NCBI RefSeq assembly: GCF_022808935.1
Contig: NZ_JAKZFR010000001.1
Coordinates: forward strand, 558,001 to 622,000
Direction: 5' to 3'
DNA: 64,000 bases
From: Geothrix sp. SG200
GTDB lineage: Bacteria > Acidobacteriota > Holophagae > Holophagales > Holophagaceae
Numbering within the stretch: the first letter of the stretch is position 1; the number at the start of each line of letters is the position of its first letter. Of this stretch, positions 36,561 through 63,112 are shown in pieces. A program made the position numbers and the translations under genes. The notes under the pieces are model-generated. The model was given only the letters and a program-made list of their open reading frames with translations. It did no database searches and was not told the DNA's origin.

Positions 36561-36627
<67 letters not shown>

Positions 36628-36647
<20 letters not shown>

Positions 36648-36887
36648 TCCGAGGGCCCCGACGGGGCCCTTCTCGTATCCGGTGGTCGGGCTCGAAATCG
36701 CGGATGGCGGCCAGGCTGACTCGGGGCCGACGCCCCTCGCACTTCGTGCCGCCAGCGGCTTCGCCGATGCGGTCCTATTCGCCTTTGGCGAATGGTGGCG
36801 CCGCCGGGAGCGCCGTGGCCAGCCAGCCGCGCGGCGGGAACCGGAGTCCGACCACCGGTACCATCCGAGGGCCCCGGCGGGGCCCTT
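36628..36887. repeat. tRNA-Leu(CAA) 3'-end unit: direct copy, inverted copy, direct copy
   Basis: The last 20 bases of the tRNA plus its terminator (36628-36671) recur at 36844-36887 with one mismatch in 44. Just after the first terminator, 36679-36696 carries an inverted near-copy of the T-arm/acceptor (CCGGTGGTCGGGCTCGAA). The 150 bases between inverted and second direct copies are rich in small hairpins (GCACTTCGTGC, GCGGCTTCGCCG, TTCGCCTTTGGCGAA). There is no coding potential. From 36888 to the hemerythrin start at 37059 nothing further is recognised. Confidence 0.85.
36653..36672 (+). terminator. Terminator of tRNA-Leu(CAA)
   Basis: GGGCCCC-GAC-GGGGCCC followed by TTCT, 6 bases past the CCA end. 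A second copy with a GGC loop sits at 36869-36888 in the duplicated unit. Confidence 0.8.
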
Positions 36888-51843: not shown

Positions 51844-51987
51844 GGGGGATCCGCTCCGGGGCCACCACTGTGCGGCGTCCCCTCCGGCCGCACGAATCGC
51901 TGGCACGGCCCTGACCGCCTCCGGCTGTCCACTGGACAGCCTCCGGCGGGGCCTACCTGCCAGCGATTCTGTGACTTCGAATCCCCC
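51844..51987 (-). repeat. tRNA-Ser-associated repeat unit, copy 1
   Basis: A 144-bp unit bounded by GGGGGAT (left) and GAATCCCCC (right), which copy the T-arm of the neighbouring tRNA-Ser. Conserved arms GAATCGCTGGCA (51894-51905) and TGCCAGCGATTC (51958-51969) enclose an inner hairpin GGCTGTCC-ACT-GGACAGCC. It differs from copy 2 at about five positions. It is non-coding. A further decayed T-arm/acceptor copy begins at 51781, so the repeat period is 195-196 bp. Confidence 0.85.
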
Positions 51988-52039: not shown

Positions 52040-52183
52040 GGGGGATTCCCTCCGGGGCCACCGCTGTGCGGCGTCCCCTCCGGCCGCACGAATCGCTGGC
52101 ACGGCCCTGATCGCCTCCGGCTGTCCACTGGACAGCCTCCGGCGGGGCCTACCTGCCAGCGATTCTGTGACTTCGAATCCCCC
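52040..52183 (-). repeat. tRNA-Ser-associated repeat unit, copy 2
   Basis: A 144-bp unit nearly identical to copy 1, with arms at 52090-52101 and 52154-52165. Its right end continues into TTCGAATCCCCCACTCTCCGCCA (52172 onward), a perfect inverted copy of the 3' end of tRNA-Ser(GGA) that faces the real tRNA end across the terminator hairpin. Between copies 1 and 2 a decayed terminator (A-run, then GCGCCCCGC) is still visible at 51997-52015. Confidence 0.9.
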
Positions 52184-52226: not shown

Positions 52227-52317
52227 TGGCGGAGAGTGGGGGATTCGAACCCCCGAACGGCTTTTGACCGTTACACGATTTCCAATCGTGCTCCTTCAGC
52301 CACTCGGACAACTCTCC
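52227..52317 (-). tRNA. tRNA-Ser (anticodon GGA)
   Basis: Class II tRNA of 91 nt including an encoded CCA on the minus strand. The acceptor GGAGAGT pairs with ACTCTCC, discriminator G follows, the anticodon stem CACGA/TCGTG encloses TTGGAAA with anticodon GGA, a long variable arm (TAACGGTCAAAAGCCGTTC) is present, and the T-arm is GGGGGTTCGAATCCCCC. Confidence 0.95.
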
Positions 52318-61326: not shown

Positions 61327-61354
61327 GCGGGTTCGAATCCCTCTCTCTCCGCCA
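61327..61354 (+). other. tRNA-Ser 3' fragment, probable attachment site of integrated element
   Basis: GCGGGTTCGAATCCCTC followed by TCTCTCCGCCA reproduces the T-arm, acceptor strand, discriminator and CCA of a tRNA-Ser. The 5' acceptor strand (GGAGAGA) and anticodon arm are missing upstream, where the DUF58 gene ends. A GAAGCCGCC-GAAA-GGCGGCTTC terminator-like hairpin follows (61357-61378). With a tyrosine integrase 411 bp away this is best read as an att remnant, a displaced core of an integrated element. Confidence 0.65.
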
Positions 61355-61395
61355 CTGAAGCCGCCGAAAGGCGGCTTCTCCGTGGCGGGGAGAGA

Positions 61396-61535
61396 GCGAT
61401 TCGAAGTCACTGAATCGCTGGCAGGTAGCCGTAGGCCTCGACAGCCCGGGGGGCTGTCGAGGCCGTAAAGCGGCGTGCCAGCGATTCGTGCGGCCGGAGG
61501 GGACACGGCGCAGCCGTGGCCCCGGAGGGAATCCC
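61396..61535 (+). repeat. tRNA-Ser-associated repeat unit, copy 3
   Basis: A 140-bp unit related to the 144-bp units at 51844 and 52040. Arms GAATCGCTGGCA (61412-61423) and TGCCAGCGATTC (61476-61487) are identical, but the inner hairpin is different: GGCCTCGACAGCCC pairs with GGGCTGTCGAGGCC. Upstream (61383-61405) lies an inverted copy of the adjacent tRNA-Ser fragment. The region 61536-61640 holds one more GTTCGGCGGA...TCCGCCGAAC palindrome; nothing coding is seen between 61300 and 61765. Confidence 0.85.
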
Positions 61536-61693
61536 GGAGCTTGATTCATCTCGCCGTTCGGCGGAGCACGATCAGGCGGCGGAGAGAGAGTCCGCCGAAC
61601 CAATACTCCACGGGATTCCACTGGGTTCAACCTAGGATTAGGCAATTGAAGCAAAAAATGTAGTTTCATCAAAAATAATTCTACAAAGTCCCA

Positions 61694-61765: not shown

Positions 61766-63112
61766 ATGGGGCGTGGAAGAGATCTCCTCAGTGCCGTCGA
61801 GGTGGCCAATTCAAAGCTGAAGCCTTCGCAGAAGAGGCGGTATCTGGTTGATGGCGGCGGTCTGTACCTGATGATCACTCGCAGGGCTCAGGGGAGCGCA
61901 GACAAGAAGGCGAGAACACCCGCCAATCAGGTCTCTAAGAGTTGGTGCTTCCGGTATCGGAGCCGAGTCACAAAAAAGCCCGTTGAGCTTGGTCTAGGGC
62001 CCCTTGCTGATGTGCCCATGGCTAGGGCCAGGGTGAAGGCCGCCGAGCTGCGTGGAATGCTCGCCGAGGGTATTGATCCAAAGACGGAGATCGAGAAAAA
62101 GCGGGCGGGGCTGAAGGCCGAGGCCGCGAAGGTCATGACATTCGACCAGGCGACAAAGGGGTGTATCCAGGACCGGAAGGGTGGATGGAAGAACGAGAAA
62201 CACCTAGCCCAGTGGGAGAACACCCTTGAGACCTATGCGAGCCCCGTCATCGGACCGCTGGACGTGGCCATCATCGACCTCGCGCTGGTGAAGAAGGTGC
62301 TGGATCCGATCTGGACCACAAAGCCGGAAACCGCGTCTAGAGTCCGCCAGCGAATCGAGGCCGTGTTGGCCTGGGCCACCGTTCATGGCCGCCGGAAAGG
62401 CCCCAACCCGGCCCAGTGGAAGAACAATCTGGATCAGATCCTTCCCCCAACTTCAAAGGTGAAGAAGAAGAAGAATCATCCTGCGCTTCCCTACCAGCAG
62501 ATTGGCGCATTCACGGCTGAATTGAGGACTCAGCACGGGGCGGGCGCTAAGGCTTTGGAGTTCCTCATCCTTACGGCCTCAAGGACCAACGAAACCCTTG
62601 GAGCCGATCCGAAGGAGTTCAACCTCGACCGCGCTATCTGGACAATCCCGGCGGAGCGCATGAAGGCGGAGAAGGAGCACACGGTTCCCCTCTGCCCCCG
62701 GGCGGTGGAGATCGTGAGGGGCCTTATCAGCGAAAGGCACAACCGAATCTTCTGCAATTCTGATGGTGAGGCGCTCTCGGACGCGGTGATGCTGCGAGTC
62801 ATCTGGCGCATGAATCAGAAGAGGGCCGCCGAAGGGAAAGATGCCTGGCAGGACTCAAAGGGACAGAAGGCTGTGCCCCATGGGTTCAGGTCAACTTTCC
62901 GTGATTGGGCTGGCGAGTGCTCCAACTTCCCAAGGGAGGTCATCGAAAATGCCCTTGCCCACCAGTTGAAGGACAAAGCCGAGGCCGCGTACTCGCGTGG
63001 CACACAGCTGGCGAAGCGGAAGTTGCTCATGAATTCGTGGGCAGCCTACTGTGCCAAGCCAAGCGAGCCGCAATCTGAAAACGTCATCCCGATCCGTGCT
63101 GAGGTCGGATAA
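61766..63112 (+). CDS. P4-type tyrosine integrase
   Basis: A 448-residue phage/island integrase with an N-terminal arm-binding DUF4102-like domain (RRYLVDGGGLYLMIT), a core-binding domain (about 115-225) and a catalytic domain with Arg in TASRTNETLG near residue 275, HGFRSTFRDW near 374-377, His in ALAHQLKD and the nucleophile Tyr in AAYSRGT near 410. It catalyses site-specific recombination, probably at the tRNA-Ser 3' end. ATG 61766 follows GGAG. Base composition is lower in GC than the chromosome to the left, in keeping with transfer. Confidence 0.95.
   Translation: MGRGRDLLSAVEVANSKLKPSQKRRYLVDGGGLYLMITRRAQGSADKKARTPANQVSKSWCFRYRSRVTKKPVELGLGPLADVPMARARVKAAELRGMLAEGIDPKTEIEKKRAGLKAEAAKVMTFDQATKGCIQDRKGGWKNEKHLAQWENTLETYASPVIGPLDVAIIDLALVKKVLDPIWTTKPETASRVRQRIEAVLAWATVHGRRKGPNPAQWKNNLDQILPPTSKVKKKKNHPALPYQQIGAFTAELRTQHGAGAKALEFLILTASRTNETLGADPKEFNLDRAIWTIPAERMKAEKEHTVPLCPRAVEIVRGLISERHNRIFCNSDGEALSDAVMLRVIWRMNQKRAAEGKDAWQDSKGQKAVPHGFRSTFRDWAGECSNFPREVIENALAHQLKDKAEAAYSRGTQLAKRKLLMNSWAAYCAKPSEPQSENVIPIRAEVG

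Follow-up and report, generated by a model that had tools for sequence, protein, structure and literature searches.

A structured repeat family behind tRNA genes of Geothrix with the layout of the RtT repeats of Escherichia coli

Introduction

What kind of element stands behind the 3' end of a serine tRNA, and is its shape preserved when its sequence is not? The question is raised by a locus in a 64,000-nt stretch of Geothrix sp. SG200 DNA (hereafter the window; contig NZ_JAKZFR010000001.1, positions 558,001 to 622,000), where a repeat that we call copy 3 follows a tRNA-Ser fragment, some 9 kb from two tandem copies behind tRNA-Ser(GGA). An earlier note on this DNA held that copy 3 shares its arms with the tandem copies, that it carries a different but still paired inner stem, and that this combination argues for selection on structure, in DNA or RNA. 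Our searches of open-licence PMC papers listed no report of these elements.

Results

Copy 3 and the other units in the window

The features of copy 3, of the adjoining island and of the other units in the window are collected in Table 1. As claimed, the arms GAATCGCTGGCA and TGCCAGCGATTC are exact in copy 3 and common to both tandem copies (51894-51905/51958-51969 and 52090-52101/52154-52165). The inner stem differs and yet pairs: copy 3 has GGCCTCGACAGCCC-GGG-GGGCTGTCGAGGCC (61434-61464), as against GGCTGTCC-ACT-GGACAGCC (+ strand) in the tandem copies. The inverted tRNA copy likewise fits its own fragment, with 2 mismatches in 23 to the complement of that fragment versus 4 in 23 for tRNA-Ser(GGA). 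Within the 161-nt stretch 61380-61540, folding is far outside the range of dinucleotide shuffles, none of 200 of which folds as well on either strand (z = -5.81 for the strand of the tRNA and -6.47 for its complement). The tandem units are 94% identical at a period of 196 nt, and the first of them, taken with its tRNA end, folds at z = -10.63. Because this period is no multiple of 3, dual coding was rejected.

Table 1. Coordinates (window positions) of copy 3, the adjoining island and the other units
Feature	Position	Strand	Basis
tRNA-Ser(CGA) 3' end, fragment only	61329..61354	+	26/26 identity to G000:C1:633224-633249(-)
Terminator-like hairpin GAAGCCGCC-GAAA-GGCGGCTTC; T-run weak in copy 3	61357..61378	+	sequence
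Inverted tRNA-Ser(CGA) end, positions 76-54	61383..61405	+	2/23 mismatches to own fragment
Copy 3 structured core and closing helix	61394..61536	+	model R1: 155.6 bits, E 8.2e-43
Long hairpin P2/P3	61412..61487	+	sequence, MFE, covariation
P2/P3 pieces: arms; inner stem	61412-61423/61476-61487; 61434-61447/61451-61464	+	
Hairpin P4	61499..61523	+	MFE; compensated changes in helix 6
Short direct copy of tRNA T-loop/T-stem (GAATCCC only), 3' strand of closing helix P1	61529..61535	+	sequence
tRNA-Ser-end-like island junction	61578..61601	-	inverted repeat I8 with 61330-61353, 79%
Island tyrosine integrase	61766..63112	+	Arm-DNA-bind_3, Phage_int_M, Phage_integrase; phrog_1 integrase
First tandem unit behind tRNA-Ser(GGA)	52041..52183	-	164.6 bits (R1); period 196 nt
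Second tandem unit behind tRNA-Ser(GGA)	51845..51987	-	154.2 bits (R1)
tRNA-Ser(GGA), host of the tandem units	52227..52317	-	ARAGORN
tRNA-Leu(CAA) (36561-36647) and element behind it	36561..36863	+	exact 20-nt direct copy of its 3' end, 36844-36863

The displaced tRNA of copy 3

The fragment before copy 3 matches, at all 26 nt, the 3' end of an intact tRNA-Ser(CGA) gene of the same genome (G000:C1:633227-633313, minus strand), and that gene lies about 14 kb from copy 3. An island downstream adjoins the copy 3 unit; a tyrosine integrase and a DnaC-like helicase loader are among the few genes that can be recognised between copy 3 and the intact gene. The near island junction resembles a tRNA end and is oriented like the intact tRNA-Ser(CGA). 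Because the intact gene lies on the other strand and the junction has that gene's orientation, it is copy 3 that is inverted relative to its tRNA; it is the unit that goes with tRNA-Ser(CGA), now reversed and separated from that tRNA by an island carrying an integrase. We read this arrangement as the outcome of an inversion between inverted tRNA-end copies and of an island insertion, two events whose order we infer. Near its tRNA-Ser(CGA) end the same island encodes a SRAP (SOS response associated peptidase) protein (L093:8563-9255). In another species (L083:240-600, G004:C8), a remnant unit adjoins the apparent start of a related integrase gene, also at a tRNA-Ser end.

Anatomy of a unit

Read along the tRNA strand, a unit comprises the tRNA 3' end (CCA), a terminator-like hairpin, an inverted copy of the T arm and acceptor (often starting TGG), a folded core, and a direct copy of the tRNA 3' end. 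The core is a three-way junction of helix P1, the long P2/P3 hairpin and the P4 hairpin, and it is closed by P1, in which the inverted and direct tRNA copies pair with one another (99.0% of helix 1 cells are paired). A hairpin with a T-run precedes the core in 70 of 89 units, where 21.9 are expected. The idea of a terminator behind every unit was dropped as weak, since one was found after 37 of 88 units (18.2 expected).

The inverted copy's acceptor part is more complementary to the unit's own tRNA than to other tRNAs in 73 of 83 units, though on average this does not hold for tmRNA or Val. A T-box-like reading of TGGN was set aside as not general, the exact own TGGN being present in 42 of the 83.

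The direct copy has an abrupt edge at tRNA position 56/57. Of 60 units, 6, 6 and 8 match the tRNA at positions 54, 55 and 56, and 58, 55, 59 and 60 match it at positions 57, 58, 59 and 60. Among 72 first units, these 60 have a direct copy of the T-stem and the other 12 have none; in 26 of the 60 the copy is exact over positions 58-76, to the CCA. An exact copy of this kind, together with P1, resembles the tRNA's own acceptor/T half with its CCA end.

A second structured module, CTGACTCGG...GTCCTATCCTCC...GGTCGGATGGT, is nested in several units, often between AGG and TAG (window 36700-36800; L038, L043, L063, L079, L081, L111, L146).

Linkage to tRNA genes

A tRNA or tmRNA gene lies on the same strand within 900 nt upstream of 104 of 128 distinct matches to our covariance model R1, a count that is not wholly unbiased because the loci came mostly from a blastn query holding part of the tRNA-derived arm; the whole-genome search with R1 was independent of tRNA. 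(The best 150 of 170 matches were aligned, and these were reduced to 138 by identical sequence within a genome and to 128 by opposite-strand overlaps.) The linked genes are Ser(GGA) (25), Ser(GCU) (18), tmRNA (16), Val(GAC) (11), Ser(UGA) (10), Ser(CGA) (6), Gly(CCC) (5), Gln(UUG) (4), Glu(UUC), Cys and Glu(CUC) (2 each), and Met, Phe and His (1 each). Many of the 24 unlinked matches stand at contig ends, and several of the 24, on inspection, retain no more of a tRNA or tmRNA than its last bases or its 3' half, next to unrelated sequence, as the far junction of an island would.

A model-free rule, applied to the Geothrix sp. SG200 genome, asked for an inverted copy of the gene's own positions 54-67 with at most 3 of 14 mismatches, one false tRNA-Asp call inside an element being left out. 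It found such a T-arm copy within 80 nt downstream of 16 of 46 tRNA/tmRNA genes and upstream of none, with 0.16 expected from shuffles. Some of the tRNAs so detected (Thr, Pro, Arg, Asp, Met) bear other cores, with a weak R1 match or none. These latter units, in which the inverted T-arm is followed by ...GCGAGTGG..., are in some cases tandem and form a second family (stretches L122, L130, L132, L138, L140, L143, L154).

When the nearest relative of each unit was sought among 100 of the 104 tRNA-linked matches, it stood at the same tRNA for 64 (12.9 expected) and in the same genome for 2 (4.4 expected). From this clustering by tRNA it follows that units stay long with one tRNA and exchange mainly among Ser isoacceptors.

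Distribution of the family

Searches with blastn gave 13 matches in the genome of origin, some partial or overlapping, and a match in 37 of 60 relatives. Model R1, which was built from 30 units, has matches in 43 of 47 Geothrix genomes (29 of the 30 of good quality), with up to 22 per genome. In an even sample of the phylum, 25 of 297 genomes were matched: 21 Geothrix, 3 from other genera of Holophagaceae and 1 outside the family, this last match being to a sub-hairpin only. An exact-pattern search of named genomes returned 24 stretches, of which 23 are labelled Geothrix or Holophagaceae (including G. fermentans, limicola, campi, fuzhouensis, rubra, paludis and terrae as well as uncultured members) and 1 is labelled 'Acidobacteria bacterium'. 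The G. fermentans stretch (L117) comes from strain DSM 14018. Presence is patchy between species. The plasmids searched held no match. The viral contigs gave one exact match, a truncated unit: on the IMG/VR contig (L227:12700-13430), a tRNA-Ser end is followed by the terminator-like hairpin, the inverted arm and the beginning of a core, after which the sequence is unrelated.

Covariation and core types

The earlier note proposed covariation across copies as the test of its claim. From 79 pattern matches, some of them false (unrelated genes), we picked 41 units by length and motif; alignment A2 holds 30 of these, the 11 omitted being of core type D, which is without GGTAG. Over the 30 copies, 20 of 45 pairs change on both sides, versus 12.1 in shuffled alignments, and the covariation score is 0.304, as against 0.127 for shuffled (none of 500 as high) and 0.035-0.086 for slid alignments. 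The inner region was not random, with 96.3% of cells paired compared with 85.6% when shuffled; the number of further pair types was not raised (37 versus 38.3 shuffled). RNAalifold, run without a given structure, returned most of the same helices and extended P2 by CAC/GTG, with four compensated cells; it missed P4. The unpaired GAARTC, AGGTA and GTGCGGCC are nearly invariant over the 30 copies.

Inner stems come in a few types of equal length, namely A (GCCC-CGCC-GGA), B (CGGC-CCCT-GGA) and C (CCGT-AGGC-CTC), beside type D; the replaced core that had drawn attention to copy 3 is an instance of this. Different types can stand at the same tRNA in different species, as do A and B after tRNA-Ser(GGA). 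Since the types are length-matched and the units of one tRNA's lineage often have the same type, some of the changes are not independent events; and since both strands of P1 are tRNA copies, its covariation reflects copying, not selection.

Read in this way, the claim of selection on structure is supported by the covariation; for the choice between RNA and single-stranded DNA there is only a strand bias to go by, G.T cells being about twice as frequent as A.C cells. A larger alignment, with P1 and a fixed G.T pair excluded, has 113 G.T and 61 A.C cells on the tRNA-sense strand, or 34 versus 25 when distinct pair-states are counted. This strand bias favours RNA or single-stranded DNA of the tRNA-sense strand, and is suggestive only.

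Comparison with RtT RNA

In E. coli K-12, tyrV is followed by three repeats of 178 nt. Every one of them closes with 19 nt that copy the tRNA-Tyr 3' end exactly from position 58, and contains GGGGAAGGAT, which is an inverted T-stem/acceptor sequence. The Rfam model of RtT (RF00391) has the inverted copy base-paired with the direct one. Annotation places the end of the ncRNA RttR (1287066-1287236) at the CCA of the direct copy in the first repeat. The Geothrix units are alike in being tandem repeats on the tRNA strand directly behind a tRNA (period 196 nt, versus 178 nt for rttR), in ending, for part of the units, with a 19-20-nt direct tRNA 3' copy from the T-loop (edge at 56/57, versus 57/58 in E. 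coli), and in having an inverted T-stem/acceptor copy that pairs with the direct copy around hairpins. They differ in that their core is unrelated to that of RtT, they stand behind many tRNA species and tmRNA in one genome where RtT has one, a terminator-like hairpin precedes the core, and the direct copy is often decayed. The units have the same layout as the E. coli RtT repeats but, judged by sequence, are not members of RtT.

A search with RF00391 gave no match above the Rfam gathering cut-off of 45 bits in 60 genomes, the E. coli control being positive, and at the gathering level the window contains three tRNAs only and no RtT. Assignment of copy 3 to a known RNA family was likewise rejected, as the matches of a permissive Rfam scan were far below cut-off. 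One sub-threshold RtT match of 29.5 bits is intergenic (L240:1501-1584; G000:C4:317960-318043) and has counterparts in other Geothrix genomes; two weak ones (G000:C8:110055 and G017:C9:222275) are on or beside the nested module described above, on the opposite strand.

According to PMC4986893, the RtT RNAs of E. coli are set free from tRNA transcripts, and those of Actinobacillus give a Northern blot signal and stand beside other tRNA genes; Bosl and Kersten (1991) is cited there as earlier work. PMC2658671 lists the Salmonella rtT RNA with a 175-bp variable-number repeat.

Integrons and transposases of the carriers

Geothrix and its kin have a chromosomal integron, with intI beside attC-like repeats of about 142 nt (8 in G032, 6 in G024 and 5 in G063; L235:233-3643, G032:C1:577000-588000; also L234, L237 and L238). 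The genuine attC of the genus reads GCCTAAC/GTTAGGC. The units are without the attC boxes RYYYAAC (R'') and GTTRRRY (R'), the Ser-class units reading GGATTCGAARTCAC ... GGAGGGAATCC instead. Of 16 genomes, 5 have the reverse transcriptase domain RVT_1 (G017, G024, G025, G032, G063, G201 and G169 are among those without it), and 4 have the Y1 (RAYT-like) transposase PF01797 (G000, G008 and G017 are among those without). Neither of these nor IS110 transposase correlates with the elements, and all three were rejected as partners; a tRNA-primed retroelement was rejected because several carrier genomes are without RVT_1. Y1 transposase genes with identical match scores occur in 5 places in G067 and 6 in G019 (L216-L226), probably a recent IS200/IS605-like expansion. 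In REP elements, GTAG stands 5' of an imperfect palindrome. Core types A-C are alike in having GTAG directly 5' of theirs, whereas type D is without GTAG and the units, unlike REP/RAYT, are tied to tRNA ends.

Discussion

Our preferred reading, to which we give slightly less than an even chance, is that copy 3 is a unit of an RtT-like family of tRNA-appended repeats which would be co-transcribed with the tRNA, released from its transcript, and functional. Read-through of the tRNA terminator would transcribe the unit; the transcript would fold, P1 forming a tRNA-like end; tRNA-processing enzymes could recognise this end and cut the unit out; and a role of the released RNA would keep the core conserved. 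Homologous recombination between tandem units would change their number. In favour of this RtT-like reading we count the linkage to tRNA genes, the complementarity to the own tRNA, the covariation, the sharp 56/57 edge, the clustering by tRNA, and the G.T bias, together with what is known of RtT: the pairing of both tRNA copies in the Rfam structure, the annotated RttR end at CCA, and the release from tRNA transcripts described in PMC4986893. Against it we count the patchy presence, the inexact or missing direct copies, the few terminators after units, the failure of every genome searched to reach the RtT cut-off, and the weak strand bias at the level of states. The strongest point against co-transcription is the terminator-like hairpin before the core: because it stands between tRNA and core in most units, transcription of the core is not obvious.

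The serious rival, and the best one, holds that a DNA hairpin was inserted at the T-loop. Here the unit would be a non-autonomous mobile element, placed by the tyrosine recombinase of an island, a phage or the resident integron, with the 19-20-nt direct copy as an att duplication and the covarying hairpins as a folded single-strand substrate, as in attC. A sharp edge in the T-loop with 20-nt direct copies, patchy occupancy, tandem arrays, and islands at the same tRNA ends are all features that speak for such an origin, and units and attC are alike in being long imperfect hairpins with constant outer arms and a variable paired tip. Moreover, an integron integrase is present in nearly all unit carriers, being above cut-off in 14 of 16 Holophagaceae genomes, all with elements, and absent from G152, which has no R1 match; but because this amounts to one independent contrast, the correlation may be mere kinship. 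The units nevertheless stand at tRNA ends in genomes that hold a normal attC array of other sequence, one that R1 does not match, and G067 has 4 R1 matches yet a broken IntI. With the attC boxes missing from the units and the real array different, the integron integrase is kept as a rival only, not as the partner. Units also keep one tRNA across species, with no recent jumps between tRNAs, and reverse transcriptase, Y1 and IS110 transposase are absent from most carriers. On balance we consider a mobile origin unlikely.

Two further explanations appear improbable to us, and about equally so. If the unit were a switch acting in cis on the upstream tRNA, its inverted arm would have two possible partners. 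Pairing with the tRNA's 3' half would spoil the tRNA, pairing with the direct copy as P1 would free it, and the core would decide between the two. Both mutually exclusive partners are present, the arms follow their own tRNA, and in c2 the tRNA 3' end and the inverted arm form one continuous long hairpin; however, the acceptor part of the inverted arm is decayed for Val and Gly, for tmRNA and Val it scores no better than with other tRNAs, and the element sits behind a terminator. The other explanation takes the units as functionless by-products of tandem duplication at tRNA ends, whose stems are kept paired by hairpin-templated correction. That imperfect palindromes undergo such correction by mutation is established, and the inner stems do come as a few interchangeable types of equal length, but the near-invariance of the unpaired stretches over 30 copies and the related units in other genera of Holophagaceae speak against it.

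Whatever their origin, orphan units such as copy 3 mark tRNA ends displaced by islands, and can aid in reading the DNA beside tRNA genes. Returning to the RtT-like reading, RtT has so far been an odd feature of E. coli, of unclear role and known from few tRNAs. That its layout recurs in a distant phylum, at about one third of the tRNA genes of one genome and with a structurally constrained core, makes it look general. A bolder extension, which we regard as doubtful, is that Holophagaceae make tRNA-specific partner RNAs, acceptor/T-half mimics with CCA on a shared scaffold that would serve, isoacceptor by isoacceptor, as decoys or regulators, the E. coli RtT being a lone outpost. If this were true, the targets of such partner RNAs would be the enzymes that act on tRNA and tmRNA 3' ends. 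Because the genus offers many natural variants, some of them in cultured species (Geothrix fermentans and others), the function of RtT becomes testable, as does its origin, by site-specific insertion at the T-loop or by copying.
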